The notes beneath the pieces are model-generated. The model did not search any database. It was not told where the DNA came from and saw only the letters and a program-made list of their open reading frames with translations. A stretch of DNA of 64,000 nt. Origin: Methylomonas fluvii. GTDB lineage: Bacteria > Pseudomonadota > Gammaproteobacteria > Methylococcales > Methylomonadaceae. Positions 1,986 through 47,663 of this stretch are shown here, piece by piece. Position 1 is the stretch's first letter, and each line of letters starts with the position of its first letter. A program made the position numbers and the translations under genes. The stretch is from positions 248,001-312,000 of the forward strand of contig NZ_JACXST010000002.1 of assembly GCF_014850975.1 (NCBI RefSeq). The letters run 5' to 3'.

Positions 1986-2016
1986 GGTTTTCTCCCCTTG
2001 TGCAACGGAGTTGTTT

Positions 2017-2385
2017 TTAAGGCAACACCAATTTGGACACCGCGTCGAGTAAAGTGGGGGCTTGAAATGGTTTGGTCAGCCAGGCTTTCGCGCCCGCCGC
2101 CTTGCCAGCCTGTTTTTTATCGTCGGCGGCTTCGGTAGTCAGCATCATCATCGGGGTGAATTTGTAAGCCGGTAGTTTTTTGGCTTCCGTAACAAAGGTT
2201 ATGCCGTCCATATTCGGCATATTCACATCGGTAATGATCAGATTGATTTTTTGTCCGGTTAATTTACTCAGCGCATCCCTGCCGTCGCTGGCTTCGATCA
2301 CATCGTAGCCAGCGCCTTTAAGGGCAATGCCGACAACCTGTCGAATGGATGCCGAGTCATCAACAATCATGATGGTTTTAGCCAT
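2017..2385 (-). CDS. cheY: CheY-like single-domain response regulator
   Basis: A 122-residue stand-alone receiver domain. It has the acidic pair D9-D10 (MIVDDSASIR), phospho-acceptor D53 (ITDVNMPNMDG), T84 (MLTTEAADD) and the switch lysine K105 (LTKPF), all expected for an active receiver. There is no output domain, so it should act by protein contact, on the flagellar motor or on another machine. It lies between the MCP and the STAS/cheA genes on the minus strand. Whether this system drives flagella or another output such as pili cannot be told from the window. Confidence 0.95.
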   Translation of the reverse strand: MAKTIMIVDDSASIRQVVGIALKGAGYDVIEASDGRDALSKLTGQKINLIITDVNMPNMDGITFVTEAKKLPAYKFTPMMMLTTEAADDKKQAGKAAGAKAWLTKPFQAPTLLDAVSKLVLP

Positions 2386-2405
2386 TAGTCAATCCTTCAT
2401 TAAAT

Positions 2406-3614: not shown

Positions 3615-3781
3615 GGGAATTCCGTTTGGGTTTTGGGTATGCTAAGGATAGTAGAGAGTTTTAGAGTTGCATTCAACCCAGTACCATCTTAGGTTTTTCG
3701 TTAATGTTAAGTCCTCAGCAATTCATGTAATTAATTGCTGACATAATTACCTGGCAAATCCTTACTAACGGAGAAAATTCT

Positions 3782-4588
3782 ATTAGCATTGCCCCTATCA
3801 CGACCGAAGAATTCGAACGCTTCAGACGTCTGATTTACGACCATGCCGGCATCGCTCTGACGCCGGAAAAGAAAGTCATGGTAGCCAGCCGGCTAGCCAA
3901 AAGGCTCGACTACTATCAGCTAGAGCATTACGGCGAATACTACCAACTGGCTATCAGTCCCGATTACCCCCATGAATTTCAAACGCTGGTCAACATTCTG
4001 ACCACCAATGAAACGTATTTTTTTCGGGAGCCAAAGCACTTCGAATTTTTTCAACAGCACATTCTTAAACCCTGGCGCGGCGAGCACTTCAGGGTTTGGA
4101 GCGCGGCTAGTTCGACAGGAGAAGAAGCCTATACTTTGGCAATGGTTTTAGCGGAGAACCTAGGCACGCGCAATTGGGAGATTTTCGGTTCCGATTTGAG
4201 CACGCGAGTGCTGGAAGTTGCCCGCCATGGCGTCTATCCACTGGATAGGCTGGACCACATGGATAAACGCCTATTGGAAAAATACTGTTTGCGCGGTGTG
4301 CGTAGCCAGGAAGGTTTTTTTCGCGTGGACAACAAACTGCGCAGCCGAGTCAAATTTGATCAGGTCAATTTGATGAGTTCACTGCCACCGGCATTGGGTA
4401 GATTCGAAGTGATTTTTCTGCGGAACGTTCTAATCTATTTCGACCAAGACACCAAAAAGCAGGTTGTCGAACGACTGATTGGCGCCCTGAAGCCTGGCGG
4501 GCATTTCATCATCAGTCATTCGGAAAGCCTGCACCGGGTCACCGAACAGTTACAAATGCTCAAACCTTCCATATACCGGAAACCATGA
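3782..4588 (+). CDS. cheR: Chemotaxis protein methyltransferase CheR (probable ATT start)
   Basis: S-adenosylmethionine-dependent methyltransferase that methylates MCP glutamates. The N-terminal helical domain (EEFERFRRLIYDHAGIAL) is followed by the SAM-binding core (VWSAASSTGEEAYTLA) and the conserved FLRNVLIYFD. The first in-frame ATG (3878) would delete about 32 residues of the N-terminal domain. The reading frame is open from 3731 but holds no ATG, GTG or TTG upstream of it. The best start is ATT at 3782, eight bases after GGAG (3770-3773), giving 268 residues, close to the family norm. Its stop overlaps the cheD start (ATGA). Confidence 0.9.
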   Translation: MSIAPITTEEFERFRRLIYDHAGIALTPEKKVMVASRLAKRLDYYQLEHYGEYYQLAISPDYPHEFQTLVNILTTNETYFFREPKHFEFFQQHILKPWRGEHFRVWSAASSTGEEAYTLAMVLAENLGTRNWEIFGSDLSTRVLEVARHGVYPLDRLDHMDKRLLEKYCLRGVRSQEGFFRVDNKLRSRVKFDQVNLMSSLPPALGRFEVIFLRNVLIYFDQDTKKQVVERLIGALKPGGHFIISHSESLHRVTEQLQMLKPSIYRKP

Positions 4589-5181
4589 AAATCCTGCCCT
4601 TCCGAGATACCCAGCGTATCGTCATCGACCCGGGCGAGTTCTATGCCTCCCGCCAGCCGGAAGTCATTTCTACGCTGCTAGGCTCTTGCGTAGCTGCCTG
4701 CCTATACGACCCGACCAATCGGGTATTTGGCATGAATCATTTTTTGCTGGCTTATCGTTCCTACTCCAACAACATGCCTATCATCGAATCCGACGAGGGC
4801 CGTTACGGCATTTATGCGATGGAATTGCTGATCAACGAGATGATGAAACTCGGCGCCAACCGGCTCAATCTACAAGCCAAATGCTTCGGTGGCGGCAACG
4901 TGTTAAAACTGCGAGAGGACAAAAACCGCAAGGAAACCGTGGGCGAAGTGAATGTTTTATTCATCAAAGAGTTTTTAAAAAAAGAAAACATTCCTATGCT
5001 TAGTGCCTGTCTAGGCGGCAATATCGGCAGAAACGTGCATTTCGTCGGTACTGATTATTCGGTGTTTATCAAAAAAATCGACCACAATCAGCAACTGTCT
5101 CTTGAAAACGAAGAGCGCCGCTACTGGAAGAAAAATATCGACGAACATGAAAAATCCAGAAGCAGTGCCGAATTCTGGTAA
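4585..5181 (+). CDS. cheD: Chemoreceptor glutamine deamidase CheD
   Basis: Deamidates specific MCP glutamines and modulates adaptation. The protein has 198 residues. The conserved catalytic region [14 protein letters not shown] carries the nucleophile Cys, followed by the His in GMNHFLL. The conserved AKCFGGGN motif comes later. The gene overlaps the cheR stop by four bases and is followed 38 bp later by cheB, so cheR-cheD-cheB form one operon divergent from the MCP/cheA operon. The C-terminal extension after about residue 160 is charged and less conserved in type. Confidence 0.95.
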
Positions 5182-5219
5182 ACCATCCAAGACCATTAAC
5201 AGGCAACCCCAAAGACACT

Positions 5220-6314
5220 ATGACAGACACAAAAGTATTCATTGTCGACGACTCCGCCGTGGTCCGGCAGGTATTAACCGGATTGCTCGATAGCCTGCCT
5301 GGCGTCAAAGTGATCGGTGCTGCGCCGGACCCCATCTTTGCCTTAACCCGCATGGAAAAAGACTGGCCGGATGTCATCATCCTGGACATCGAAATGCCGC
5401 GCATGGACGGCATCACGTTCCTGAAGAAGCTGATGCACGAACATCCCACGCCAGTGGTGATCTGTTCGACGCTCACGGCCAAGGGCGCGGAAGTCACTAT
5501 GCAGGCCATGAGTGCCGGCGCCGTTGACATCATCACCAAACCTACCGTCAACCTGAAAGGCTTTCTGCAAGATTCGAAAACACTGCTGGCGGATGCCATT
5601 AAAGGCGCTGCGCATGCCAGAATGCGAAAATCGGCAGCCCCAACCGGCAAACCTTTGGATGGCAGCCCGAAATTAACTGCGGACGCCGTCATTTCCCCTA
5701 CCAGCCTGATCTCGATGACGGAAACCACCGACCGCGTCGTCGCCATCGGCACGTCAACCGGCGGCACCCAGGCTCTGGAATACGTATTGACGCGATTACC
5801 CCGCACCACACCGGGTATCGTCATCGTGCAGCACATGCCCGAGGCATTTACCGCAGCGTTTGCCAAACGACTGGACAGCCTCTGCCAGATCACCGTCAAG
5901 GAAGCCGAGCAAAACGACCGGGTCATTCCCGGCCTGGCTTTGATTGCTCCGGGTGGCAAACACATGCTGTTGCGCCGCAGCGGCGCCCAATACCGGGTGG
6001 AAATCAAGGACGGCCCGTTAGTCAGCCGCCATCGGCCATCGGTGGATGTACTATTTCGCTCGGCCGCGCAAGCTGCCGGCAAAAACGTACTAGGCATCAT
6101 CATGACCGGCATGGGCGATGACGGCGCCCACGGCATGAAGGAATTGCACGATACCGGCGCGCTGTGCATCGCCCAAGACGAAGCCAGCTGCGTGGTTTAC
6201 GGCATGCCCAAAGAAGCGGTGAAACTGGGCGGCACCGACGGTGAACTCCCGTTATCGGCCATCCCTAACTTGATCATTCAATCGCCGAACCGGGCAAAAT
6301 TCTTGAAAGGTTAA
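5220..6314 (+). CDS. cheB: Protein-glutamate methylesterase/glutaminase CheB
   Basis: Removes methyl groups from MCPs when phosphorylated by CheA. The 364-residue protein has an N-terminal receiver with acidic residues D10-D11 and phospho-acceptor D56 ([11 protein letters not shown]). A linker follows, then the methylesterase domain with catalytic Ser in AIGTSTGG (about S179), His in VQHMPEAF (about H205) and Asp in [11 protein letters not shown] (about D300). It is the last gene of cheR-cheD-cheB. It converges on the sugar transporter gene, with only 13 bases between the two stops. Confidence 0.97.
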
Positions 6315-6316
6315 AG

Positions 6317-6338
6317 GCCGGTTTTATCTACAACCGGC
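6317..6338. terminator. Short stem between convergent cheB and sugar transporter genes
   Basis: A 7-bp stem (GCCGGTT at 6317-6323 pairing with AACCGGC at 6332-6338) sits exactly between the two convergent stops. A short T run lies in the loop and none follows the stem, so function as a bidirectional terminator is plausible only from its position. Confidence 0.35.
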
Positions 6339-7584
6339 GACAGCGGTAGCCGTAATAAGCGATATACAAGTAGCAAAGAACAGGGATAAAAAAGGCTTGC
6401 TGTATACCGATATGATCCGCAAACGCCCCTTGCAGCAACGGTAAAATAGCCCCGCCGACAATGGCGGCGCACAATATGCCGGAGCCTTGGCCGGTATGCC
6501 GGCCCAAGCCGGTCAAAGCCAGCGAAAAGATGGTGGGAAACATGATGGAATTGCACAATCCCACTGCCAGTATCGTTATCATTGCCAGTGTGCCGCTACC
6601 CAACATCGTTGCCAATACCAAAGCCGCTGCCGCCAAGGCATTAAACGCCAGCACCTTGCCGGGATGGATTTTTTGCATCACCGCCGAACCAATAAACCGG
6701 CCGACCATCGCCCCGCCCCAATAAAACGACACGTATTTGCCGGCCTCTTGTTCCGCCAAACCGGCAATATCCGGCTCGCCGAGGAAGTTGACCAGAAAGC
6801 TGCCGATAGACACTTCGCCGCCGACGTATACAAAAATAGCCACCGCACCCAACACCAGATGGGAGTAGTGCCAGGCGCTGCCATCCTCTGCATTAGGGCC
6901 AGTTGCCTCGGCTTGCTGGTTAATCTTAGGCAACTTCAACATCGCAAACACTGCCGCCATGAAAAACAATACTGCCGCAAGAAAGAGATACGGATTCTGC
7001 ACCGCCGCCGCTTCCGCCGCTTGATACGCCGTGAGTTGATCGGCATCGAGCAGTTTTATCTCATCAACGCTTTTCACCGCATTCGACAAAATAAACAAGG
7101 CACCAAAATACGGCGCCAACGTGGTCCCCAAAGAATTGAAAGCCTGGGTCAAGGTCAAGCGACTCGACGCAGTGTGCGGATCGCCCAACACCGTCACGTA
7201 AGGATTGGCAGAAACCTGTAGCAAGGTTATCCCGGACGCCAGCACAAAAAACGCCCCCAAAAACAAGGGATAGGAATGTAGACCGGCAGCCGGATAAAAC
7301 AATAAACAGCCGCCACCGGCAATCGCCAAACCGACGATGATGCCGCCTTTGTAATCGATTTTTTCCACCAGATAGCCGCTGGGCACCGACATCAAAAAAT
7401 ACGCAGTGAAGAAACAAAACTGAATCAGCATCGCCTGGGTATAGCTCAGCGTGAACACCGCCTTCAAATGCGGAATCAGAATGTCGTTAAGACAGGTGAT
7501 AAAGCCCCAAATAAAAAACAGCGAAGTCAGAATAGCTAACGAGCCCGCATTAGACTGTCTACCCAGGTGTTGTTGATCCGGCAT
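6328..7584 (-). CDS. Sugar MFS transporter, FucP/GluP type
   Basis: A 418-residue inner-membrane protein with about 12 hydrophobic segments. It matches the fucose:H+ / glucose-galactose symporter branch of the MFS: an N-terminal [19 protein letters not shown], a following [15 protein letters not shown], then [12 protein letters not shown] and [14 protein letters not shown], all typical of FucP-like proteins. It lies 21 bp downstream of a GH3 beta-glucosidase on the same strand, which suggests uptake of a monosaccharide released in the periplasm. The exact substrate (glucose, galactose or fucose) cannot be read from sequence. Sugar uptake would be notable if the host is an obligate methanotroph. 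Confidence 0.9.
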
Positions 7585-7605
7585 AAGCTAATCCTGCAAA
7601 TCGAT

Positions 7606-9855
7606 TTAGGGTTTAACGACCTGGAAACGCGCAACTTCGTTTCCGACCATCACCTCAAACTCGCCCGGCTCGACGATACGCCGCATATCCACGCCGATGA
7701 AAGACATATCCTGCGGCGTTAAGCTAAATTGCAAAGTCTGCTCCGCGCCGGGTTTTAACTCGACTTTTTTAAACGCCTTTAGCTGTTTTACCGGCCTTGA
7801 TACCGAGGCTGCAACATCGTGTAAATACACCATGACGGTTTCCTTACCAGTCAGCGCGCCGGTGTTTTTCAGCTTAACGGTCACGTCGATATTCTCGCCC
7901 ATCCCAATCTTGTCTTGGCTCAGTTGCAGGCCGCTGGTCTGGAAAGTGGTGTAGCTTAAACCGTGTCCAAACGGATACAAAGGCCGATACTGATTGCTCT
8001 CAAACGCCTCTATCGGCTTGTGATCGTACATCACAATATCGTTAACATCGCGCGGATAGGAAATCGGCAGCTTACCGCTGGGATTGGTGTCGCCGAACAA
8101 AATATCGGCCATCGCCGCCCCGCCTTCCATGCCCGGCAGAAAGCCCAACACCACCGCCTGCGCCTTGTTGGCAATCTCGGTAATAATGCGCGGCCGCCCG
8201 CCGAACACGACTAAAACCACCGGCTTGCCGATTTCAAATATCGCTCTGGCCAATTGCAACTGCACCGGGTCCAAATGCAGGGATTCGATATTGCCTTCGG
8301 TTTCGGTATAGGTTTTTTCGCCCAGCGCCAAAATCACCACATCGTGCTGCCGGGCTTGCGTTACCGCCTGCTCGATATTGATTTCATCGCTAAAATTTTT
8401 ACCGCCAACATACGTGACCTTACCGCTGGTTTTTTGCTGAATGGCTTGCAGCAAGGTGGGCTTGTCTTTGGGGTACAAATGCTCGGCGGCGCCCTGCCAC
8501 GTGATAGTCCAACCGCCGTTCATTACGCTCAATAAGTTCGCGGTCGGCCCGGTGACTAGGATGCTGGCCTGCTTACTCAAGGGCAAAATATGCTGATCAT
8601 TTTTCGCCAGAATGATGGCTTCCCGCGCCGCTTGCTGATTCGCGGCCACAGCGTCTTCAGTGACAAAGTTACCTTTTGCCGCCAGCGCCGGTTCGTGTCT
8701 GTCAAACAAACCGCTTTGATATTTCACCCGCAAAATACGCGACACCGCTTCGTCGATGCGGGTCATCGGCACTTCGCCGGTTTTGGCTAAATCCAGCAAC
8801 AAGTCGTAAAACGAGTAATCGAACGGCACCATGCTCATGTCCACGCCGGCCATCACTGCCATTTTTACTGCTTCGCGCGGCGAAGCCGCCAGTTTGTCAC
8901 GGGTATATAAACGGCTGATGTCCGCCCAATCGGAGACGGTGAAGCCCTTAAAGCCCATTTCGCCGCGCAAAATGGTGTTCAGATAATGATGATTGACGTG
9001 GCCGGGAATGCCGTCCACTTCCGAGGAGTTGATCATTACGGTCGGCGATCCGGCTTTCACGCCCGCTTCGAAGCTCGGCAGAAAATATTCACGCAAGGCT
9101 CGTTCCCCTATCCAGGCCGGGGTGCGGTCCTTGCCGTTTAAAGGATAGCTGTAGCCAACATAATGCTTCAAACAAGTCGGGGCTTTGTCGGCGTCCGCAA
9201 AATTGTCGCCTTGATGCCCTTGGATATAAGCGCTGCCCATCGTCACCGCCAAATGCACGTCCTCGCCGTAAGTTTCCCACAAGCGCGGCCACAACGGTTG
9301 CCGGCCGATGTCCATCACCGGCATGAAATTCCAGTCCAAACCCGACGCCTTGACTTCCCGCGCGGTCACTTCGCCTTCCTTGAAAGCTAAATCATGATTA
9401 AACGTCGCCGCCATGCTGATGGCTTGCGGAAACAGCACTGCGTTTTCGGTATAAGTAGCACCATGAATCGCGTCGATACCGTACAGCACCGGAATTTTCA
9501 GCCGGCTTTTTGCCGCCACCTCACGTATCGCTTGAGTCATGCGCCGCCATTTTTCGATGGGCTGAGTTTGATTATTCGGCGTCGTGGGCGTGTTCAGTAT
9601 TGAACCGATATGCCGGTTTAAGATGGCGTCTTCGAGTTTGGCCTGATCGATGGGATTGTCGGCTACCTCGCCATTCACGACCGAAACCACGCTGAAGTCG
9701 ATCTGCGTCATCTGCCCGACTTTTTCTTCCAGGCTCATTTGCGCCAATAAGGCCTGGACCTGCGCTTCAACATTGTCGTTTGTTTCTTCTGCACTCACGC
9801 CGGACTCCAACACCACAAATAAGGAAAGAATTAAAAAAGCTAATTTTGTTTTCAA
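7606..9855 (-). CDS. bglX: Periplasmic beta-glucosidase, glycoside hydrolase family 3
   Basis: Hydrolyses terminal beta-linked glucose (or xylose) from oligosaccharides in the periplasm. The protein has 749 residues. A Sec signal peptide (about residues 1-22) is followed by the GH3 barrel with the substrate-binding KHYVGYS and the catalytic nucleophile Asp in GFTVSDW (D309). The GH3 C-terminal alpha/beta sandwich and a fibronectin-III-like domain (VTVKLKNTGALTGKETVMVYL) complete the BglX layout at full length. It is the upstream gene of a two-gene operon with the FucP-like transporter. The enzyme class is certain; the natural substrate is not. Confidence 0.94.
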   Translation of the reverse strand: MKTKLAFLILSLFVVLESGVSAEETNDNVEAQVQALLAQMSLEEKVGQMTQIDFSVVSVVNGEVADNPIDQAKLEDAILNRHIGSILNTPTTPNNQTQPIEKWRRMTQAIREVAAKSRLKIPVLYGIDAIHGATYTENAVLFPQAISMAATFNHDLAFKEGEVTAREVKASGLDWNFMPVMDIGRQPLWPRLWETYGEDVHLAVTMGSAYIQGHQGDNFADADKAPTCLKHYVGYSYPLNGKDRTPAWIGERALREYFLPSFEAGVKAGSPTVMINSSEVDGIPGHVNHHYLNTILRGEMGFKGFTVSDWADISRLYTRDKLAASPREAVKMAVMAGVDMSMVPFDYSFYDLLLDLAKTGEVPMTRIDEAVSRILRVKYQSGLFDRHEPALAAKGNFVTEDAVAANQQAAREAIILAKNDQHILPLSKQASILVTGPTANLLSVMNGGWTITWQGAAEHLYPKDKPTLLQAIQQKTSGKVTYVGGKNFSDEINIEQAVTQARQHDVVILALGEKTYTETEGNIESLHLDPVQLQLARAIFEIGKPVVLVVFGGRPRIITEIANKAQAVVLGFLPGMEGGAAMADILFGDTNPSGKLPISYPRDVNDIVMYDHKPIEAFESNQYRPLYPFGHGLSYTTFQTSGLQLSQDKIGMGENIDVTVKLKNTGALTGKETVMVYLHDVAASVSRPVKQLKAFKKVELKPGAEQTLQFSLTPQDMSFIGVDMRRIVEPGEFEVMVGNEVARFQVVKP

Positions 9856-34575: not shown

Positions 34576-34687
34576 TTAACCCGGCCCTGTTTAACACTGG
34601 TTCACCGTTCGGGCTGAGCCTGTCGAAGCCTGATGTGGCGCGTCCTTCGACAGGCTCAGCCCGAACGGTATTTAAGGGCCGGATTAA
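34576..34687. repeat. MITE-like element with 24-bp internal perfect stem
   Basis: A 112-bp unit with terminal repeats TTAACCCGGCCCT and AGGGCCGGATTAA (12 of 13 paired). Inside, 34605-34628 and 34645-34668 form a perfect 24-bp inverted repeat (CCGTTCGGGCTGAG.../...CAGCCCGAACGG) around a 16-base loop. Related copies lie at 14052, 33622 and 51032. The element is upstream of the Nit1C leader, and its hairpin could end transcription entering from the left. Confidence 0.8.
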
Positions 34688-34861: not shown

Positions 34862-34896
34862 CCCTGTATCCATCCCACCGATGCAGGGCATTTTTT
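34862..34896 (+). promoter_or_regulatory. Terminator-like hairpin in the leader of the Nit1C operon
   Basis: CCCTGTATC (34862-34870) pairs with GATGCAGGG (34880-34888; one G-T pair). It is followed by CA and six T residues, ending about 10 bases before the AGGAGAG ribosome site of the first gene. The form is that of an intrinsic terminator used for attenuation or as a riboswitch expression platform. The leader upstream (34690-34861) can fold locally but matches no riboswitch class I know. Confidence 0.55.
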
Positions 34897-34917
34897 ACTA
34901 ATATCCAGGAGAGTTTC

Positions 34918-35400
34918 ATGCCCGCAGTCACCGCACCGGCCCATCAAAAAGGCGATTGTTTTGTCGATTTCGAAGAAAAAGTATTTGAAGACGTCAAAGC
35001 CGAGCCCGGCCAGAAAGCCTTGGTCAAATTCCATACCGTCGCCTTCGAAGGATCAATCGGCTTTGTCAATTTGTTGCAAGCAACCCGATTGCAACGCAAA
35101 GGCTTCGAAACCTCCATCCTGCTGTACGGTCCTGGGGTGACATTGGGTTTGCAACGCGGTTTTCCGCGCCTGGGTGACGAATCATTTCCCGGCCATCAAA
35201 ACTACGCCAATCAGATTGCCAAATTCATCGAGGAAGGCGGCAAAGTCTATGCCTGCCGCTTTGCACTGCAAGCTTTGTACGGCCATGGCGAACCGAGCCT
35301 ATTGCCGGGCATTCGCCCGATCAGCCCATTGGATGTGTTAGATATTGTATTGATCCATCAGCGCGACAATGCTTTTATCTTGGACACTTGGACGCTGTAA
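34918..35400 (+). CDS. nitB: Nit1C protein, MSMEG_0572/Sll0783 family
   Basis: First gene of the cluster, 160 residues. It belongs to the conserved MSMEG_0572/Sll0783 family described as a nitrogen-starvation-response protein; its chemistry is unknown. The body resembles a DsrE-like fold, with [20 protein letters not shown] and the phrase [16 protein letters not shown]. There is no signal peptide. AGGAGAG precedes ATG 34918. A terminator hairpin separates it from nitC, so it may be made in excess over the rest. The letter names follow the nitBCDEFGH scheme of Nit1C as I remember it. Confidence 0.88.
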
Positions 35401-35471: not shown

Positions 35472-36467
35472 TTGATCACGTCCACTATCGTCAGAGCCGC
35501 CGCCGTGCAAATTGCGCCGGTGTTCGAATCCGCCACCGCCACCGGCGACAAGGTGTGCCAGGCCATCAGCGACGCCGCCGCGAAAGGTGCGCAAATCGTG
35601 GTGTTTCCGGAAACCTTCGTGCCGTATTACCCCTATTTTTCCTTCGTGCTGCCGCCGGTCAGCCAGGGCCGCGAGCATTTGAAGCTTTACGATTACGCGC
35701 CGACGGTGCCGGGACCGATTACCGAGGCTGTCGCGGCGCAAGCCAAGGCGCACGGCATTGTGGTGGTGTTGGGGGTTAATGAGCGCGACCACGGCAGCTT
35801 ATATAACACCCAACTGATTTTCGACGAAACTGGCCGGCTGGCGCTGAAACGCCGGAAGATCACCCCGACCTATCACGAACGCATGATATGGGGTCAGGGC
35901 GATGCTTCGGGCTTAAAGGTCGTGGAAACCGGCATCGGCCGTATCGGTGCGCTGGCCTGCTGGGAACATTACAACCCGCTGGCCCGCTATGCGTTGATGG
36001 CCCAGCACGAACAAATCCATTGCAGTCAGTTTCCCGGCTCTTTGGTTGGGCCGATCTTTGCCGAACAAATTGAAGTGACAATCCGCCACCATGCGCTGGA
36101 ATCCGGTTGCTTCGTCATCAATGCCACCGGCTGGCTTAGTGACGAGCAAATTGACTCGGTGACCACCGACCCTGGCCTGCAAAAGGCTCTGCGCGGTGGT
36201 TGCTGTACTGCCATCATTTCGCCGGAAGGTCAACATGTCGTCGAACCGTTACGGGAAGGCGAAGGCATCCTGATCGCCGATCTGGATATGAATTTAATCA
36301 CCAAACGTAAACGGATGATGGATTCGGTCGGCCATTACGCCCGGCCGGAACTGCTCAGTTTGCGCATAGCCGACAGGCCGGCGGTACCGATGTTCAGCGA
36401 CCTGCCAGCCGTTTCAACTCAACCCATCCAGGAGAGCGACTGCAATGACGCTGGCAACACATACTAA
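35472..36467 (+). CDS. nitC: Nitrilase Nit1 (Nit1C cluster), TTG start
   Basis: Carbon-nitrogen hydrolase of the Nit1 branch, 331 residues. The catalytic triad is visible: E47 (VVFPETFVP), K129 ([12 protein letters not shown]) and C163 ([11 protein letters not shown]). CWEHYNP identifies a true nitrilase rather than an amidase. The Nit1C cluster is genetically tied to cyanide assimilation in Pseudomonas and others. The start is TTG at 35472 with AGGAG eight bases upstream; no ATG lies at the right place. It overlaps the next gene by 23 bases. Confidence 0.95.
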
Positions 36468-37557
36468 AACCGGTGTGGCGGAGCTGATCGCCGATCTGCA
36501 ATCCTTAGGCTTACGCCTGGAAGGCAGCGAAATAGGCATCTCAGGACGCCGCGGCGGCGCCGGACCTTCCGATCACAAAGCCGTTAACGTGGCCGGCCGC
36601 ACAGTGATGATACCGATTGCCACGGTTTCGGCTTGCGAATCGCCGTTCGTCGCCAGTCGGCCGAACGCACACGGCATCAGCGAGATTCGTCGCGATGGCG
36701 CTGTGGTTAGCCAGGTTCAATTCCCACGCCAACCACGCTTTTATGATTTGCAGACGGCCGACGGCATTCCGTATTCGCAGATTGCCACGCTGCATTCAAG
36801 GGATGTGCTGGCGACCACGCTGCTGCAATCGTGTATCCGTTACGGCAAGCGCAAAACCTCCTGCCAGTTCTGCGCCATCGGTCAGTCGCTGGCGGCGGGC
36901 AAAACCATCTTGCGTAAAACGCCCGCACAACTGGCCGAGGTCGCGAAAGCGGCGGTGGAACTGGATCAGGTCAAACACATGGTCATGACCACTGGCACGC
37001 CGAATCTGACCGACAGAGGCGCGGCACTGTTGTGCGAAAGCGCTGCATCCGTCAAAGCGGCTGTCGATCTGCCGATTCAAGGCCAATGCGAGCCGCCGGA
37101 TGACGACCTCTGGTTTGAGCGCATGAAAGCCGCCGGCATAGACAGTTTGGGCATGCACTTGGAAGCGGTCATGCCGGCAGTACGCGCCCGCATCATGCCC
37201 GGCAAAGCCGGCGTGCCGCTGGAACGTTACATGGCTGCCTTCGACGCTGCGGTGGCGGTGTTCGGTCGCGGCCAGGTGAGTACTTATATCCTGGCAGGTT
37301 TAGGCGATACGCCGGAAGCGATTCTGTCGGTCTCCGAGCAGTTGATAGCGAAAGGCGTTTACCCCTTTGTCGTGCCGTTCGTACCCATTACCGGCACACC
37401 GTTGCAAAACCATCCGGCGCCGACACCGGCCTTCATGGCGCAAATCCTGCCGCCTTTGGGTGCGATGCTGAAGCAGGCAAATCTGCTATCCCAAGACATG
37501 AAAGCCGGCTGCGCCAAATGCGCCGCCTGTTCGGCACTGGCCAGTTATGAGGTGTGA
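36445..37557 (+). CDS. nitD: Radical SAM protein, MSMEG_0568 family (Nit1C)
   Basis: A 370-residue radical SAM enzyme of unknown reaction conserved in Nit1C. The cluster-binding cysteines C130, C140 and C143 have spacing Cx9Cx2C ([17 protein letters not shown]) rather than CxxxCxxC. A C-terminal group C356, C359 and C362 (GCAKCAACS) could bind a second FeS cluster. The SAM-barrel region includes [16 protein letters not shown] and IQGQCEPP. It overlaps nitC and is followed one base later by the acetyltransferase gene. Confidence 0.92.
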
Positions 37558-37558
37558 G

Positions 37559-38101
37559 ATGTGGAGCAACGACTTTAAACCGTTTTTTGCCAACGCTTAC
37601 CTGATCAAATTCGTCACCGAGGATTGGGAACGCAAACAGATGCGGGCGCTGCGCCAAGCCGTGTTCTGTGAAGAACAAGGAATCTTCGCCGGCAACGACC
37701 TGGACGACATCGACAACATCGCCACCCCCATCGTGGCTATCGCCTGCGTTGCCGGCCTGCCGGATAGGGTTGTCGGCACCGTGCGGATTCATCAGGAACA
37801 ACCCGGCATTTGGTGGGGCTCGAGATTGGCGGTGGAGCAAGACTATCGCAAACAAGGCAGTCTCGGCGCGGCGCTAATCAAGCTAGCCGTCACTTCAGCG
37901 CACGCTCAGGGTTGCACCCGCTTTCTGGCGCAGGTGCAAAGCCGCAACCAATTGCTGTTTCGCCGGCTGCACTGGAAATCGTTGCAGGAAATTTCGGTAC
38001 ATGGCCGGCCGCATTATCTGATGCAAGCGGACCTGGCTTGGTATCCGCCTTATGCCGATGGAGCTATCGGTTTTGTTACCACGAATCGGGTTGCCGCATG
38101 A
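37559..38101 (+). CDS. nitE: GNAT acetyltransferase, MSMEG_0567 N-terminal half (Nit1C)
   Basis: GNAT-fold protein of 180 residues. Motif A lies around GSRLAVEQDYRKQGSLGAAL (acetyl-CoA pyrophosphate loop R/QxxGxxG/A), and the central VVGTVRIHQEQPG strand pair precedes it. In many genomes this domain is fused to the AIR-synthase domain encoded by the next gene; here the two are separate and overlap as ATGA. The acyl acceptor is unknown. ATG 37559 follows a GAGGTGTGAG ribosome site. Confidence 0.9.
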   Translation: MWSNDFKPFFANAYLIKFVTEDWERKQMRALRQAVFCEEQGIFAGNDLDDIDNIATPIVAIACVAGLPDRVVGTVRIHQEQPGIWWGSRLAVEQDYRKQGSLGAALIKLAVTSAHAQGCTRFLAQVQSRNQLLFRRLHWKSLQEISVHGRPHYLMQADLAWYPPYADGAIGFVTTNRVAA

Positions 38102-39171
38102 CCTGGCTGGCCGATTTGACTCTCGACATCCGCCAAGGTTTGGGATTGGCGCATAAGCGGGATATTGCCCAGGTGATGAAATACTTATCGCCGCATTCCG
38201 CTGAGAAGATTCATTGTTCCCACGGTCTCCGTGGGAACCCCGCTCTGGACGCTCCAGCGTCCCGAACCGCAGAGCGGTTCAGTCTGCATTCCCACGCGCA
38301 GCGTGGGAACGATGTACCGATCGGCGACGATTGCGCGGCGATAGCCGATGCCGACGGCTATCTGTTGTTGGCCTGTGAAGGCTACCTGAATCACTTCGTC
38401 GCCAGCCAGCCCTGGTTTGCCGGCTATTGCGGGGTGATGGTCAACGTCAGCGACATTTATGCAATGGGTGGTCGGCCTATCGCCGTGGTCGATGCGATCT
38501 GGAGCGACGGTGAACATCAAGCCAAACCGATTCTGGAAGGCATGGCGACTGCCGCGCAAGTCTACGGTGTGCCGGTGGTTGGCGGCCACAGCAATCTGCG
38601 CAACGATCGCCCGCAATTATCGGTCGCCATCCTGGGGAAGGCGCAAAAACTATTGAGCAGTTTTGCCGCCAAACCGCGACAACAACTGCTGGCAGCCATC
38701 GATTTACGCGGCCACTTCCGTGAACCTTATTTATGGTGGGACGCCAGCACTGGCGCACCACCCGAACGCTTGCGCCAGGATTTGGAAGTCCTGCCGACAC
38801 TGGCGGAAACCGGCCTATGCGCGTCGGCCAAAGACATCAGCAATGCCGGAGTAATCGGCACCTTATTGATGCTGCTGGAATGCTCCGGTTTAGGGGGCGT
38901 GATCGACATTAACGCCATACCGCGTCCAGCCGACATCGATTTGGCAAGGTGGTTGCGCTGCTTTCCCAGCTACGGCTTCGTGCTGAGCGTGGATGAGATT
39001 AATAGCGAAGCGGTGATTGAACTGTTTAGCCGGCGCGACATTGGTTGCGCAGCCATCGGCAAAACGGACGACAGCGGCCGGCTGCGGCTTAAAGCAGGCG
39101 CCGAAGAACAACTGCTCTGGGATTTAAATAGCGAAGCCCTGATCGGCTGCGGCCCAAACCGGCAGGATTAG
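38098..39171 (+). CDS. nitF: AIR-synthase-like protein, MSMEG_0567 C-terminal half/Sll0787, with in-frame repeat insertion
   Basis: A 357-residue PurM/AIRS-like ATP-binding protein. Family motifs are VPIGDDCAAI (phosphate-binding GDD), MVNVSDIYAMGGRPIAVVDA and VVGGHSNLR; ISNAGVIGTLLMLLE matches the C-terminal half. Between about residues 39 and 72 the chain runs IHCSHGLRGNPALDAPAS and TAERFSLHSHAQRGND, the product of a palindromic DNA repeat at 38212-38314 that keeps the frame. The insertion precedes the ATP-binding GDD and may or may not be tolerated. The start overlaps the nitE stop. Confidence 0.9.
   Translation: MTWLADLTLDIRQGLGLAHKRDIAQVMKYLSPHSAEKIHCSHGLRGNPALDAPASRTAERFSLHSHAQRGNDVPIGDDCAAIADADGYLLLACEGYLNHFVASQPWFAGYCGVMVNVSDIYAMGGRPIAVVDAIWSDGEHQAKPILEGMATAAQVYGVPVVGGHSNLRNDRPQLSVAILGKAQKLLSSFAAKPRQQLLAAIDLRGHFREPYLWWDASTGAPPERLRQDLEVLPTLAETGLCASAKDISNAGVIGTLLMLLECSGLGGVIDINAIPRPADIDLARWLRCFPSYGFVLSVDEINSEAVIELFSRRDIGCAAIGKTDDSGRLRLKAGAEEQLLWDLNSEALIGCGPNRQD
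38212..38314. repeat. Palindromic repeat inserted in frame in the AIR-synthase-like gene
   Basis: About 103 bases made of four consecutive hairpins: GTTCCCACGG/CCGTGGGAAC, CGCTCTGG/CCAGCG, CCGCAGAGCGG and TTCCCACGC/GCGTGGGAA. The outer ends CATTGTTCCCACG and CGTGGGAACGATG are inverted copies. It looks like a REP/BIME or RIPS-like mobile palindromic unit. It contributes about 34 codons without a stop. Confidence 0.8.
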
Positions 39172-39173
39172 CG

Positions 39174-40349
39174 ATGCATAGATTACGAATTGCCATGCTG
39201 ACCCATTCCGTCAACCCACGCGGCGGCATGGTGCATGCGATGCAATTGGCGGAGGCTTTGCAGGATTTGGGACACGACGTGACCTTGATCGCCGCAGCGG
39301 AACCGGGCAAAAATTTCTTTCGCGACGCGCGCAGCCAGACAACGCTGATACCGCTACCCAGATTGAGCAGCGAATTGGTCGACGCTGTCGGTCAACGCAT
39401 TCAGGCTTATATCGATTACTTCAACCAGCCCGATACTGAAGCATTCGATATTCACCACGCCCAAGATGCCATCAGCGGTTGCGCGATGGCCGAACTTAGC
39501 GAACGCGGCATCATCGATGGCTTTGTCCGCACCGTGCATCATCTGGATAGTTTCGACGACGCTTCATTGGCGAATTGGCAAAATCGCTCGTTCCTGGCCG
39601 CCCAACGAGTCTTGTGCGTCAGCCTTGATTGGCGGGACAAATTGCACAAGCAGCATCGGATTGCCGCCACCCAAGTCAATAACGGCGTCGATACTCAGCG
39701 CTATTCGCCCACGCCGCAAGCCCATGACGAAACCCTGCGCCAGTCGCTGGGTTTGACGCGTGGCGGGCCGATCTTCCTGGCGGTCGGCGGCATCGAGGCG
39801 CGCAAAAACACTTTGCGCATCTTCGCCGCATTCCGCCAAGTTTTGCAGCACCGCCCCAATGCGCAGTTGATCATCGTCGGCGGCGCAAGCTTGTTAAATC
39901 ATCACGCATATCGTCAACACTTCAATACCGCCGTCGCCGAGAGCGGTATTCAGGATGGCCACGGCCAACCATTGATAATCACCGGCCCATTGCCCGATGC
40001 CGACATGCCGAGTTTGTTCCGTCTGGCTGACGCACTGGTGTTTCCATCATTGACCGAAGGTTTTGGCCTGGTGGTGCTGGAGGCCATTATCTCCGGCACG
40101 CCGGCCATCGTTTCGCTACGGCCGCCGTTTACCGATTATTTGCAAGATCAGGACTGCATCTGGACCGACCCGGAAGACAGCGCAGCGATCGCAAACGCGA
40201 TGCTGACGGCCGTCGATGATTTCCCCACGGATAGCTTGCCAGCTATTGCTAAGCGTTTAAGAGAGCAATTTTCCTGGGCGCAGTCGGCCCATACCCATCT
40301 TGAAATTTACCGTTCATTCATCAACGCCAAAGGAACCCACTATGCCTGA
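39174..40349 (+). CDS. Glycosyltransferase, MSMEG_0565 family (Nit1C)
   Basis: GT4-type glycosyltransferase of 391 residues with the GT-B fold. The N-terminal acceptor domain has SVNPRGGMVHAMQLAEAL. The C-terminal sugar-nucleotide domain has the AVGGIEARKN segment and the EGFGLVVLEAIISGTPAI motif (EX7E). Members of this subfamily recur in Nit1C clusters. The product (possibly a glycosylated metabolite) is unknown. It overlaps the next gene by eight bases. Confidence 0.92.
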   Translation: MHRLRIAMLTHSVNPRGGMVHAMQLAEALQDLGHDVTLIAAAEPGKNFFRDARSQTTLIPLPRLSSELVDAVGQRIQAYIDYFNQPDTEAFDIHHAQDAISGCAMAELSERGIIDGFVRTVHHLDSFDDASLANWQNRSFLAAQRVLCVSLDWRDKLHKQHRIAATQVNNGVDTQRYSPTPQAHDETLRQSLGLTRGGPIFLAVGGIEARKNTLRIFAAFRQVLQHRPNAQLIIVGGASLLNHHAYRQHFNTAVAESGIQDGHGQPLIITGPLPDADMPSLFRLADALVFPSLTEGFGLVVLEAIISGTPAIVSLRPPFTDYLQDQDCIWTDPEDSAAIANAMLTAVDDFPTDSLPAIAKRLREQFSWAQSAHTHLEIYRSFINAKGTHYA

Positions 40350-40629
40350 AATGCGCTTCCGCGTCCGCTGGCCGGACCAAACCGAGAGCCTGTGTTATTC
40401 GCCGTCACTGGTCATTAAGGATTATTTCCAACCCGGACAAAGTTATCCCTTGCCGGAATTCGTCAAGCACAGCCGCGAAGCGTTGGAAATAGCCAGCGAG
40501 CGAGTGCGGCAAAAATACGGCTACACCTGTTCCAGCGCGATGAGCCAACTGGCGGAAATCGAAGCCAAGGCCAGCCAATTTTTGGAAAGCGACAGCCCCC
40601 AGGTCAGTGTCATCGAATTCATAGAATAA
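40342..40629 (+). CDS. nitG: MSMEG_0570 family nitrogen starvation response protein (Nit1C)
   Basis: A 95-residue acidic protein of the MSMEG_0570 family, named for nitrogen-starvation response; its biochemistry is unknown. It begins MPEMRFRVRWPDQ, continues with SLVIKDYFQPGQSYPLPEFV, and has a helical C terminus. It overlaps the glycosyltransferase stop, so translational coupling is likely. No domain beyond the family itself is visible. Confidence 0.88.
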   Translation: MPEMRFRVRWPDQTESLCYSPSLVIKDYFQPGQSYPLPEFVKHSREALEIASERVRQKYGYTCSSAMSQLAEIEAKASQFLESDSPQVSVIEFIE

Positions 40630-40663: not shown

Positions 40664-41935
40664 ATGAAAGAAAAATCAGAAAACACCCGCCTGCACTATG
40701 ACACGATTATCGTCGGTGGCGGCCAGGCCGGTTTGTCCGTCAGTTACCATCTGCAAAAGCAAGGCATCAGCCATATCATCTTCGAAAAAAACCGCATCGG
40801 CCATTCCTGGCGCAACGACCGCTGGGACAGTTTTTGTTTGGTCACCCCAAACTGGCAATGCCAACTGCCGGACTTTCCCTATCAGGGCGACGATCCGCAA
40901 GGCTTTATGCTGAAAGACGAAATCGTCGACTATATCGAGGCATTCGCCAAAAAAGTGAATCCACCGATTATGGAAGGTGTCGCGGTGAATCGGGTCTGGC
41001 GTGGCGAGCAAGGCAAGCTGCATGTCAGCACCTCAGCCGGCGAGTTTTCGGCCAACCATGTCGTGGTAGCAACCGGCGGATACGATGTTCCTATCGTGCC
41101 GGACTATGCACACAGCTTGCCCAAGCACATCACCCAGATTCATTCGGTCAATTACCGCAATCCGGATCAACTGCCGGCAGGCGAAGTGCTGGTGGTCGGC
41201 ACTGGCCAATCCGGCGTGCAGTTAATGGAAGACTTGCATCTGGCCGGCCGCAAGGTGCATCTGGCCGTCGGTAGCGCCCCGCGTTCGCCGCGCATGTATC
41301 GCGGCCGCGAAACCACGGAATGGTTGTTTGATCTGGGCTTTTATCAATTGACCATCGACCGCCATCCCTTGGGCGACGAAGCCAAGCACAAGACCAATCA
41401 TTACCTGACCGGGCGTAGCGGCGGCCATGAAATCGACTTGCGCCAGTTTGCCTTGGAAGGCGTGAAACTTTACGGCAGCATGGCCAACATCGACGGCAGC
41501 CAATTGGAGTTTTTACCCGATTTGACCAAAAACCTGGACGATGCCGACGACATCTACGTCAATATCCGCAACGACATCGACCGCTATATCGTCGAAAATA
41601 ATATAGCTGCACCGGTCGAACCGCCGTTCCGCAAAGTATGGGAACCCGAGTTCGATCCTACCCGCATTGATGCGGATGCCGAAAACATCACCAGCATTAT
41701 CTGGGCAATCGGTTTTAGACCGAACTACCGTTGGATAGAACTGTCCGCCTTCGATGGCCGCGGCTTCCCGCAATATGATCGCGGTGTCAGCAACGTGGAG
41801 GGGCTGTATTTTATCGGTCTGCCCTGGCTGCATACCTGGGGGTCCGGACGGTTTCTGGGGATTGCCGACGATGCCGAGTATTTGGCGGATGTGATTCAGC
41901 GTAAATTGGCGGCTAAGGCCGTGGCTGAGGTGTAA
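40664..41935 (+). CDS. nitH: FAD-dependent oxidoreductase, MSMEG_0569 family (Nit1C)
   Basis: Flavin-containing monooxygenase-like protein of 423 residues. It has an FAD Rossmann motif (IIVGGGQAGLSVSYHL), an NADPH Rossmann motif (VLVVGTGQSGVQLMEDL) and the FMO-like HSWRNDRWDSFCLVTPN and IIWAIGFRPNY segments. It is the last gene of the eight-gene Nit1C array, after a 34-bp gap with its own GAGG site. A monooxygenase step on a nitrogen-containing metabolite is inferred from family membership only. Confidence 0.93.
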   Translation: MKEKSENTRLHYDTIIVGGGQAGLSVSYHLQKQGISHIIFEKNRIGHSWRNDRWDSFCLVTPNWQCQLPDFPYQGDDPQGFMLKDEIVDYIEAFAKKVNPPIMEGVAVNRVWRGEQGKLHVSTSAGEFSANHVVVATGGYDVPIVPDYAHSLPKHITQIHSVNYRNPDQLPAGEVLVVGTGQSGVQLMEDLHLAGRKVHLAVGSAPRSPRMYRGRETTEWLFDLGFYQLTIDRHPLGDEAKHKTNHYLTGRSGGHEIDLRQFALEGVKLYGSMANIDGSQLEFLPDLTKNLDDADDIYVNIRNDIDRYIVENNIAAPVEPPFRKVWEPEFDPTRIDADAENITSIIWAIGFRPNYRWIELSAFDGRGFPQYDRGVSNVEGLYFIGLPWLHTWGSGRFLGIADDAEYLADVIQRKLAAKAVAEV

Positions 41936-45094: not shown

Positions 45095-45796
45095 TCAATA
45101 CCATACCCGCACCCCCACGACACCGCGCAAACTGTGTTGGTGTTCGCGGAGTGATTCTTCCTCGACATAGTCCATACCCACGTAAGGCGCAAATTCGCGT
45201 TCGATTTCGTAACGCAAGCGAAAGCCGGCTTCAAATTCGGTTATTCCGGCTTTAACGCCGCGATTTTTTATATCTTCAGCCGCTACATTTACTTCCACCC
45301 GCGGTTGCAGAATCAGGCGCTGGGTCAAGAGCATTTCGTAACCCAGCGTCAAACGCCCCAGCACGTTGCCTTTCTCGTTAATGAACATCGCACTGTCCAC
45401 TTCAATAAAATACGGCGCCAGCCCTTGAAAGCCTATCACTGCATCAAAGGTGCGTTCCGGTTCTATCGCTCGCCGCGCACCGATTTGAAAGTCCCAAAAC
45501 GTATCAATATTTCGGCTATACAGCACTTGCAAATCGGCGCGGCCAAAGATGTTTTGATCGGCGGAATAGTCGCCTTCCGATTTCAACCACAGTTTATTTT
45601 CGTCGGTACCGGTCCAGTTTTGCACATCCCATTTGAATAGATGCAAGTCTTGATTACCTTCGTACTCCAGTCTGTCGGCCTTGAAATGATTAAAAATCAT
45701 CGAACTATCGTGCGCGGTAGCGGCAGAACAATACAGCGCCAGCAGCAGACAGAACCAAACATTTATATGTCTATCAAGCGAGACCTTAGAAGTCAT
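45095..45796 (-). CDS. copB: Copper resistance protein B (CopB-like outer-membrane protein)
   Basis: A 233-residue protein with a signal peptide (LLLALYCSAATAHD). The CopB hallmark runs through FNHFKADRLEYE and LFKWDVQNWTGTDENKLWL, then AELE-like FGRADLQVLYSR and QIGARR. The terminal VGVRVWY is that of an outer-membrane beta barrel. It lies downstream of copA. A longer frame to 45910 would add VIPAKAGIQ, which is merely the translation of a REP palindrome, so ATG 45796 is used. The usual Met/His-rich N-terminal region of CopB is absent. Confidence 0.92.
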   Translation of the reverse strand: MTSKVSLDRHINVWFCLLLALYCSAATAHDSSMIFNHFKADRLEYEGNQDLHLFKWDVQNWTGTDENKLWLKSEGDYSADQNIFGRADLQVLYSRNIDTFWDFQIGARRAIEPERTFDAVIGFQGLAPYFIEVDSAMFINEKGNVLGRLTLGYEMLLTQRLILQPRVEVNVAAEDIKNRGVKAGITEFEAGFRLRYEIEREFAPYVGMDYVEEESLREHQHSLRGVVGVRVWY

Positions 45797-45828
45797 CGTT
45801 CCCGTGCAGAAGCAAGCCCAGTCGTCAC

Positions 45829-45858
45829 ACTGGATTCCCGCTTTCGCGGGAATGACGA
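45829..45858. repeat. REP palindrome between copA and copB
   Basis: An 8-bp stem ATTCCCGC/GCGGGAAT with a four-base loop (45834-45853), flanked by CTGG and GACGA as in widespread bacterial REPs. It sits in the copA-copB spacer and may stabilise the upstream copA transcript or attenuate copB. Confidence 0.85.
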
Positions 45859-45896
45859 CCATGGAGTACTTACGGGTCATCGTGGAGAACCAGGCC

Positions 45897-47663
45897 TTAC
45901 TGATGCTCATGTTTCGCCTTTTCTACGATTAATTTACGAAACATGCCGGTATCCATGTGATACAGCAAATGACAATGAAAGGCCCACTCGCCTTCCGCAT
46001 CTGCCGGCACATCGACGCTGACCGTCTGACCGGGCTTGACGTTGATCACATGTTTTTTCGGGTTGTACATGCCATTCCCATTGTCCAGGTACTGCCACAG
46101 ACCGTGGATATGGATGGGATGATTCATCATGGTTTCGTTTATATAAGTAAAACGAATTCGCTCGCCAAATTTGACTCGAATCGGCTCTGCATCGGCAAAT
46201 TTAGTGTCGTCGAACGACCAGATATAGCGCTGCATATTGCCGGTTAGCCTGAGTTTGATTTCTCGGTCCGGCGGCCCCATTAGCGCATGGTTTGGTTGCA
46301 CGGCGATTAACTGGCTATAGCTCAACGGTTTGGCGGTATCGCTGGCATCCGCCACTGGCATTACATGGCCGGCATGCGGATTCGGAGGGGCATCGGCAGT
46401 GGCATGCTGATGGCCGCTGTGCTCTACCATGGTGGAGTCTGGTGCAAGCGCGCGTTCTGCGTGCGAGTGGTCAACTTCCGCAGTAACCGCTGGTTCATCC
46501 GGTGCTTGATGAGCAGAATGGCCGGCATGCTCGCCTCCCATATCCGCCAAGGTCAACAAAGTCATGGGCCGCAATGCAGGCAATTCGGCATGCAGGTCCG
46601 CGCGCGGTGTCAACGTCGCGCTGACATAACCGCTGCGATCCATCGCTTCGGCAAAAATGCTGTAAGCCTGCTCGGTTTGCGGCTGAACCAAGACGTCATA
46701 AGTTTCCGCCACGGCAATGCGGAATTCCTCTACATCTACCGGCTCAACCGGCTGACCGTCCGCGGCAATCACCGTCATTTTTAGACCCGGCAGACGCACA
46801 TCAAAATGCGTCATTGCCGATGCGTTGATAAAGCGCAAACGCACTGTTTCGCCAGGCTTGAACAGATAGTGCGGTTTCGCTTCCGCAGTTTTGCCGTTGA
46901 TCAAAAACCGGTAATTGGCGCCGGTCACATCGGCCAGATCGGTAGGCTCCATACGCATTTCGCCCCAGGCCAGCCGATCAGCTATGGTTTCCCAAAAACC
47001 CAAGCGTTGAATATCGGCGAAGAAATCACCCACTGTGCGTTGTTGAAAATTGTAATAGTCGCTTTGTTTTTTTAAGCGGGCCATGGTCCGCTGCGGATCG
47101 GCACGCGGCCAGTCGGACAGCATCACCACATAATCGCGATCTACCGTTTGCTGCTCCTGTTGCGGGGCGATGATCAGCGCACCGAACAAACCCTGTTGCT
47201 CCTGCATGCCGGAATGGCCGTGATACCAGTAGGTGCCGCTTTGCTTGACTTTAAACCGGTAGGTAAAGGTCTGGCCGGGTTCAATGCCGTCGAAACTGAT
47301 GCCCGGCACGCCGTCCATTTGGTAAGGCAGAATGATGCCGTGCCAGTGAATTGAAGTGGATTCTTTGAGTAGATTCGTGACTTCTAAGGTCACGTCCTCG
47401 CCTTCCCGCCAATGCAAGGTGGGCGCTGGCAAAGCGGCATCCGCCAGCACGGCCTGCTGAGTTTCGCCGATTAGATTGATCGACTTTTCCGAAACCGACA
47501 AACGATAAACATCGGCCTGCGTCAGGCTGGGCAGCAAATTTGCCAGCATCAGCCATGCAATAGCATATCTATCGACCCGCCCCTTAAACTTCCTGCGCTC
47601 ATGATGTCCTACGATTGCTTTAAGGGCGGGATTGATAGGGTGGGAAAATACCCAATAGCGCAT
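45897..47663 (-). CDS. copA: Copper-resistance multicopper oxidase CopA
   Basis: Periplasmic multicopper oxidase of 588 residues. The four copper-ligand motifs are present: HWHG, WYHGHSG, HPIHIHG and HCHLLYHMDTGM. Between them (about residues 380-450) is a His-rich stretch (HAGHSAHQ, HSHAE, HSGHQH, HAGH), suited to extra Cu(I) binding. AGGGG precedes ATG 47663. The first 31 residues (INPALKAIVGHHERRKFKGR) are encoded by an inverted-repeat unit at 47576-47630. ERRKFKGR followed by a hydrophobic segment ending SLTQA could pass for a twin-arginine signal. First gene of copA-copB. Confidence 0.94.
   Translation of the reverse strand: MRYWVFSHPINPALKAIVGHHERRKFKGRVDRYAIAWLMLANLLPSLTQADVYRLSVSEKSINLIGETQQAVLADAALPAPTLHWREGEDVTLEVTNLLKESTSIHWHGIILPYQMDGVPGISFDGIEPGQTFTYRFKVKQSGTYWYHGHSGMQEQQGLFGALIIAPQQEQQTVDRDYVVMLSDWPRADPQRTMARLKKQSDYYNFQQRTVGDFFADIQRLGFWETIADRLAWGEMRMEPTDLADVTGANYRFLINGKTAEAKPHYLFKPGETVRLRFINASAMTHFDVRLPGLKMTVIAADGQPVEPVDVEEFRIAVAETYDVLVQPQTEQAYSIFAEAMDRSGYVSATLTPRADLHAELPALRPMTLLTLADMGGEHAGHSAHQAPDEPAVTAEVDHSHAERALAPDSTMVEHSGHQHATADAPPNPHAGHVMPVADASDTAKPLSYSQLIAVQPNHALMGPPDREIKLRLTGNMQRYIWSFDDTKFADAEPIRVKFGERIRFTYINETMMNHPIHIHGLWQYLDNGNGMYNPKKHVINVKPGQTVSVDVPADAEGEWAFHCHLLYHMDTGMFRKLIVEKAKHEHQ
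47576..47630. repeat. Inverted repeat within the 5' end of copA
   Basis: CCCGCCCCTTAAA (47576-47588) is the inverted copy of TTTAAGGGCGGG (47619-47630), with one extra C in the left arm. Partial symmetry extends outward (TATCGA on the left, ATTGATA on the right). The unit is read through by the copA frame and encodes the section before its signal-peptide core. Confidence 0.7.

Follow-up and report, generated by a model that had tools for sequence, protein, structure and literature searches.

The nitF-like gene of Methylomonas fluvii carries, in frame and shortly ahead of its GDDCAAI motif, a palindromic element that is dispersed in Methylomonas and Methylobacter, and with a probability of roughly 85% we explain this finding overall by the tolerated in-frame insertion of a non-autonomous palindrome. 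The element has been located within a contiguous stretch of 64,000 nucleotides (hereafter the window) at positions 38212-38313 of the forward strand (HCSHGLRGNPALDAPASRTAERFSLHSHAQRGND), delimited by the family consensus. Its 102 bases form 34 stop-free codons, which correspond to residues 39-72 of the protein, and align gap-free to the family consensus with 90 of 102 positions identical. A preliminary description had proposed a unit of about 103 bases in the nitF frame that adds about 34 residues before VPIGDDCAAI, and this is borne out with an exact length of 102 bases.

Four hairpins have been found in the element, at 38216-38238, at about 38246-38263, at 38264-38280 and at 38289-38309 (all +), the first of which pairs with the fourth as inverted ends. 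When folded as single-stranded DNA, the hairpins stand in tandem (-35.4 kcal/mol, z -6.9, equalled by 0 of 200 shuffles), whereas in the RNA fold the end hairpins may open and combine into one long stem around the two inner hairpins (-55 kcal/mol, z -5.25). Of the four nested hairpins described before, the number has thus held, and the nesting applies to the RNA fold and not to the tandem ssDNA fold. Allowing 3 mismatches at most, the window matches the hairpin pattern TTCCCACGCNNNGCGTGGGAA twice, both times within the element, versus an expectation of 0.05. An alignment of 102-bp copies, taken from genomes of Methylomonas and of Methylobacter-like bacteria, comprises 39 of 45 candidates, six having been excluded. 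In it, 91.6% of the cells are paired as four local hairpins, a value reached by 24 of 500 shuffles, and the covariation of these local hairpins is barely above that of the shuffles. The 26-bp inverted ends are paired in 85.6% of the cells and show 27 double-sided changes versus 11.0 in shuffles (1 of 500 as high), where two column pairs supply 22 of the 27 changes and the shuffles ignore the relatedness of the copies. No Rfam family has been matched within 38000-38500 up to an E-value of 1.

The host gene (38098-39171, +, start ATG at 38098-38100) encodes a protein of 357 amino acids including the element, which matches the profile of the sll0787 family AIR synthase-like proteins (TIGR04049) with 449 bits versus a cut-off of 321.3. 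It is the AIR-synthase-like member of an eight-gene nitrilase cluster, whose type we take to be Nit1C, as we take the gene to be nitF. The neighbours, all on the forward strand, encode an MSMEG_0572 family protein (34879-35400), a Nit6803 family nitrilase (35472-36467), an MSMEG_0568 family radical SAM protein (36445-37557), a GNAT N-acetyltransferase whose stop codon overlaps the nitF start (37559-38101), an MSMEG_0565 family glycosyltransferase (39174-40349), an MSMEG_0570 family protein (40342-40629) and an MSMEG_0569 family flavin-dependent oxidoreductase (40664-41935). Directly past the element lies the GDDCAAI motif (38323-38343, +), which is invariant in 13 of 13 aligned homologues and presumably binds ATP/Mg in the PurM/ThiL/HypE fold. 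A second nitrilase cluster of the same genome (contig C3, 59411-66418, equivalent to 1412-8419 of locus L052) holds a nitF-like gene without the element together with all seven other cluster genes. An AlphaFold2 model of NitF is poor over most of the chain (mean pLDDT of 51, about 28-31 in the insert and below 50 throughout residues 15-187), so that the surface loop of the preliminary description is conjectural, and the solved structures related to nitF are distant only (PurL, ThiL, HypE, SelD). Close to the start of the nitrilase cluster, at 34605-34668, the window also contains an inverted pair of CTTCGACAGGCTCAGCCCGAACGG, a palindromic repeat of a different type.

In what follows, G-numbers designate genomes (G000 being that of the window) and L-numbers loci. 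A search of the own genome has given 18 matches at E ≤0.001, five of which, the nitF copy among them, span at least 96 of the 141 query bases, and the same repeat is therefore present elsewhere in the genome, as the preliminary description had expected of a mobile unit. Within the genus, a 260-base query has found matches in 32 of 37 genomes, where 158 of the query bases are nitF flank and some matches, at least that of G022, are by flank only. An exact 24-base pattern has been recovered from GTDB contigs, a set from which the own genome is possibly absent, in 14 stretches of 13 records (eight Methylobacter, four Methylomonas, one Methylococcaceae and one 'uncultured proteobacterium'), and the 34-residue peptide of the nitF frame (E 1e-6) has been detected across 15 of the 50 genera of the order (49 of 311 genomes). 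Each of the 13 copies located in nitF, NrdA or HypF measures exactly 102 bp, and the lengths of the 55 other measured copies vary between 98 and 122 bp, with 33 divisible by three (68 of 72 records; one duplicate and three records below 55 bits were excluded). This uniformity is suggestive only, because the 13 copies descend from about three insertion sites.

At E 1e-40, the genus has yielded 12 nitF homologues in 10 of 37 genomes, five of which are filled (the C2 gene of G000, copy a of G048, and those of G049, G002 and G012) and seven empty. With G034 from another family counted, the empty homologues comprise the C3 paralogue of the own genome and seven more, and the absence of the segment from homologues, suggested beforehand, has thus been confirmed by alignment. 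SPHSAEKI-(34 aa)-VPI-GDDCAAI of the window corresponds to SPHSAEKI-AM-GDDCAAI in the nearest empty gene, that of G014, so that the filled version is longer by a net 35 residues. The occurrence of the same segment in homologues had been named beforehand as evidence against an insertion; it is found in four others, yet these sit among empty homologues and are no refutation, because the segment may be shared via descent, recombination or re-insertion. That the element could be an assembly or sequencing artefact is next to inconceivable and is refuted by independent genomes, as it has been found in nitF of five genomes with differing flanks and likewise in four NrdA, four HypF and four CobN genes.

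In an rpoB tree of 20 genomes, G048 and G049 are sisters and G014 is distant, whereas the nitF host tree, calculated with the insert removed, does not recover this arrangement, and because of this disagreement the nitrilase cluster has probably moved between species. The gene of G049 is furthermore a mosaic: in three 200-column windows around and just past the element its identity to G002 is 88-94%, but starting roughly 1 kb downstream it falls to 60-76%, with 82-96% to G000/G048. In the respective locus (L089), about 500 bp around the element are G002-like and the remainder is G000/G048-like, which is a sign of gene conversion. Instead of a single insertion followed by deletion, loss and recombination, the element might have hit the same spot twice, once in the G000/G048 lineage and once in the G002/G012/G049 lineage, which would be compatible with a tolerated insertion and which we hold to be somewhat less likely than not. 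Two classes of 5' junction speak for such a double hit, one with the linker kept and the net gain of 35 residues (G000/G048), the other with eight linker residues missing ahead of the element (G002/G012/G049; net gain of 27 in G049 and G002), and so do element trees without flanks, in which the nitF copies have remained ungrouped in 3 of 3 runs at low support. The identical 3' junction GGGAACGATGTACCG in G000, G048 and G002, however, points to one event, as does a tree of 68 copies with 5-base flanks that places the five nitF copies together, although these flanks bias the grouping and supports are low; forced grouping of the nitF copies has not been rejected (AU 0.37).

Regarding the consequences for the enzyme, the preliminary description had left the choice between a neutral insertion and a damaged pathway, and the sequence comparisons favour the former, a tolerated linker insertion and not a wrecked pathway; the NitF enzyme is thus probably not damaged. 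Purifying selection acts on the host codons, with a mean dN/dS of 0.136 between filled genes (range 0.113-0.186, 10 pairs), 0.098 between empty genes (0.069-0.160, the 16 of 28 pairs with dS <1.3) and 0.123 between filled and empty genes (0.064-0.242, 25 of 40 pairs). Damage to NitF, by which the gene would be an incipient pseudogene and the genome would depend on the element-free C3 copy, is improbable. It would agree with the slightly higher dN/dS of the filled genes, with the empty second copy present in both G000 and G048 and with the complete set of other genes in the C3 cluster, but the filled gene is the sole copy detected (E 1e-40) in G049, G002 and G012. The filled genes moreover contain no stops, keep a dN/dS of 0.11-0.19 and an intact GDDCAAI, and the length differences flanking the insert are whole codons. 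A point against tolerance is that, at 188 columns that are invariant in the eight empty genes, G012 deviates 12 times (the other four filled genes three to four times); in a leave-one-out comparison the distant empty genes of G022 and G034 deviate at 16 and 21.

Within the insert of nitF, dN/dS amounts to 0.34-1.61 versus 0.11-0.19 in the host (10 pairs, few substitutions), and its amino acids therefore look free to change. This bears on a recruitment of the added peptide for a function of the host protein, e.g., regulation or partner binding, which we consider a shade less probable still than damage: the peptide frame does persist across several species in nitF, NrdA and CobN, but besides the high insert dN/dS of nitF, the insert dN of HypF exceeds the host dN in 6 of 6 pairs, and the hosts belong to unrelated families in which element-free homologues exist. 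The synonymous divergence adds a further feature, as dS is lower inside the insert than in the adjacent host codons in nitF (0.08-0.27 vs 0.28-1.23) and HypF (0.00-0.16 vs 0.47-0.90) and, in a milder form, in NrdA (0.04-0.47 vs 0.05-0.81). Orthologous copies that share a presumably untranslated locus are likewise rather alike, with 85.6-95.2% identity (15 pairs from six genomes). The low dS values do not fit plain neutral drift since a shared insertion, and they could be caused by later arrival, by gene conversion among copies or by hairpin-templated repair.

The preliminary description had further regarded translated repeats in conserved enzymes as rare, which is not supported in this order, where the element stands in frame in about ten unrelated proteins. 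In NrdA, the large subunit of ribonucleotide reductase, it lies in the tail before DCEACQ in four of nine genes. At this position the nearest solved structure (5im3) shows another stretch of slightly smaller length, so that the linker is variable anyway. In HypF of G000, G013, G048 and G049 the element is read from its other strand and separates the zinc-finger from the YrdC domain; as for nitF and NrdA, empty homologues exist beside the filled ones. Thirty HypF loci have been fetched and 27 tried, of which 24 have a readable linker. Fourteen of these linkers measure 29-34 residues; the four that contain the element measure 61-63, and the six that hold other, unrelated inserts reach 73, 85 or 100. 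The linker of G018 (34 residues) contains one single hairpin of the element. The unrelated inserts have been seen between CPxCGP and KGLGGF in different Methylomonas genomes (loci L184-L210), and the HypF interdomain linker is possibly a landing hot spot. The insert of G007, G012, G021 and G042 looks like another palindromic repeat, of which no dispersed copy has been found at E 0.001 in seven genomes. The G024 insert, a long inverted repeat, recurs in short partial copies at other places of G024 and in G011 and G000.

Further hosts in the nitF frame are CobN of four genomes (one assigned by family match and three through the agreement of their flanks, the copy of G149 being degenerate in its first part), an NRPS adenylation and an NRPS condensation domain, where the paralogous domain of the same protein is empty, a PRTase_2-TRSP protein, an RT-Cas1 fusion, a DnaE intein and a methylase-specificity protein, with CobN and the last four assigned by frame and domain matches only. 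The choice of these order-wide hosts followed frame length, with the longest open frames of the 100 matches listed being taken and shorter frames being mostly unexamined, and of 15 further long-frame loci among the same matches 10 are in-gene. Long open frames that we judged to run antisense to or upstream of genes, or that lack a Pfam match (L039, L040, L135, L151, L152, L157, L169, L271, L275-L278 and L307-L311) have not been counted as hosts. From 56 ORFs that overlap other copies, 20 have been scanned with Pfam, giving three matches with the element outside the domain in each.

Among the 72 copy records of the genus, 52 have an open nitF frame, and this frame is used at nine of the ten gene sites found, i.e., at eight besides nitF, with HypF as the exception. 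With a GRAVY of -1.42 it is the most hydrophilic of the five frames open in the consensus, compared to -0.04 for the HypF frame. The HypF-frame peptide has been found in 42 of 311 genomes of the order, where open frames above 300 residues are confined to HypF of G000, G013 and G049 and to a locus of G203, in which the element seemingly lies upstream of a gene. As two of the six frames (nitF and HypF) have been searched order-wide and all six at the 72 genus records, the preference for the nitF frame may partly be a search effect.

Taken as a tolerated insertion, these observations suggest the following course. A non-autonomous element with few stop codons and usually 102 bp in length, resident in Methylomonas and Methylobacter, would presumably have been transposed into the variable linker that joins the N-terminal segment encoded by a nitF gene to GDDCAAI. 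The reading frame would have stayed open because the length is divisible by three and a very hydrophilic frame is available, and NitF would have gained a 34-residue spacer that is probably unstructured and exposed. The allele would have survived because the enzyme tolerated the insert, presumably with its catalytic activity retained, and may have spread from species to species as the cluster moved horizontally and, in G049, by local gene conversion. Landing would be wide, with readings that are 3n long, stop-free, hydrophilic and situated in linkers persisting as the survivors, and such survivorship may be the cause of the frame preference.

The search for a mobilising enzyme has covered the Y1_Tnp family, of which three matches occur in the own genome; mobilisation by a RAYT has been ruled against, since no element lies within 1.5 kb of any of the three. 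No parental transposase has been found in this Y1_Tnp search and no clear target duplication for the core; many copies have TA-like ends, and the pre-insertion sites are not exactly fixable. In G045 the four-hairpin core is contained in a larger MITE-like unit with inverted, imperfect ends TAAGGATTTCGTCAGAAATAACTTCC and GGGAAATTATTTTCAACCAAATCCTTA (loci L138, L134, L143, L150, L155, L160, L162, L167 and L156); judging by this nesting, some copies may be carried by a DNA transposon.

Translated palindromes are best known from Rickettsia, i.e., from obligate intracellular bacteria with small, decaying genomes, and were reportedly treated by Ogata et al. in 2000 and 2002. The element described here resembles that type in being a short dispersed palindrome with inverted ends that lies in frame in unrelated proteins, with empty homologues for nitF, NrdA and HypF and an empty paralogous domain for the two NRPS domains. 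In the literature, the Rickettsia palindromic elements (RPEs) measure 105-146 bp and occur in 19 reading frames of Rickettsia genes (PMC2229807), and a guanylate kinase bearing one is still active with a changed substrate affinity (PMC2229807, PMC10969869). By description, RPEs and the present element are alike as palindromic repeats in the range of about 100-150 bp whose frame is open and which are read through in unrelated conserved proteins. In contrast to RPEs, the hosts here are free-living methanotrophs, and the unit has four hairpins and is exactly 102 bp long in nitF, NrdA and HypF.

Hairpin repeats inside ORFs are also known as intragenic GTAG and CGTC REPs, which one report places in Rickettsia conorii, Opitutus terrae and Thioalkalivibrio and argues to be tolerated since inactivated genes get lost (PMC3733652). 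Unlike the GTAG REPs, the element and its near flanks are free of GTAG and CTAC (the tag GTAG is absent from both strands of 38201-38330) and no RAYT stands beside it; unlike in CGTC REPs, the CGTC at 38258 is part of the stem of hairpin 2 and not unpaired at an end, and each unit comprises four hairpins. A third comparison concerns MITEs with ORFs, which include the 107-bp form of Correia, ERIC and the QMITEs of Coxiella (PMC2229807, PMC5896051, PMC10969869), the last being ORF-bearing (PMC5896051). By these accounts they are likewise short and non-autonomous, with inverted ends and frames that fuse to host ORFs; inverted terminal repeats are present in our element, for whose core the Y1_Tnp search has given no parental transposase and the copy ends no clear target duplication. 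The repeat has not turned up in searches of the open-access literature on Methylomonas, Methylobacter or methanotrophs, so that, within the scope of these searches, the kind is known and the family, its hosts and its range of proteins are new.

In Rickettsia, the tolerance of translated palindromes could be attributed to weak selection. Their presence in large genomes of free-living methanotrophs, in enzymes of core metabolism such as NrdA and in many protein families, argues for the in-frame capture of selfish palindromes as a general route to new linkers. We tentatively suggest, at slightly less than even odds, that Methylococcales hold RPE-like selfish palindromes which have grown protein-compatible and seed the linkers of unrelated proteins, some of these linkers, as in HypF, being repeated landing sites. 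With the same reserve, the unit may be pictured as 34 stop-free codons read nearly always in the most hydrophilic frame, in hosts as diverse as a reductase, a chelatase, an NRPS, an RT-Cas1 fusion, an intein and a methylase; equally provisional is the notion that HypF-like linkers take up unrelated inserts, at least one other of which would be palindromic. If true, new disordered protein segments would keep arising in free-living bacteria in this way. Methylomonas and Methylobacter, harmless hosts of which some are cultured, offer natural filled and empty pairs of one enzyme, even within a genome, which would let neutrality be measured directly. Elsewhere in the window, at about 45641-45910, ORF translations contain VIPAKAGIQ and DSRFRGNDD, which we take to be typical of another widespread, translated-looking repeat.
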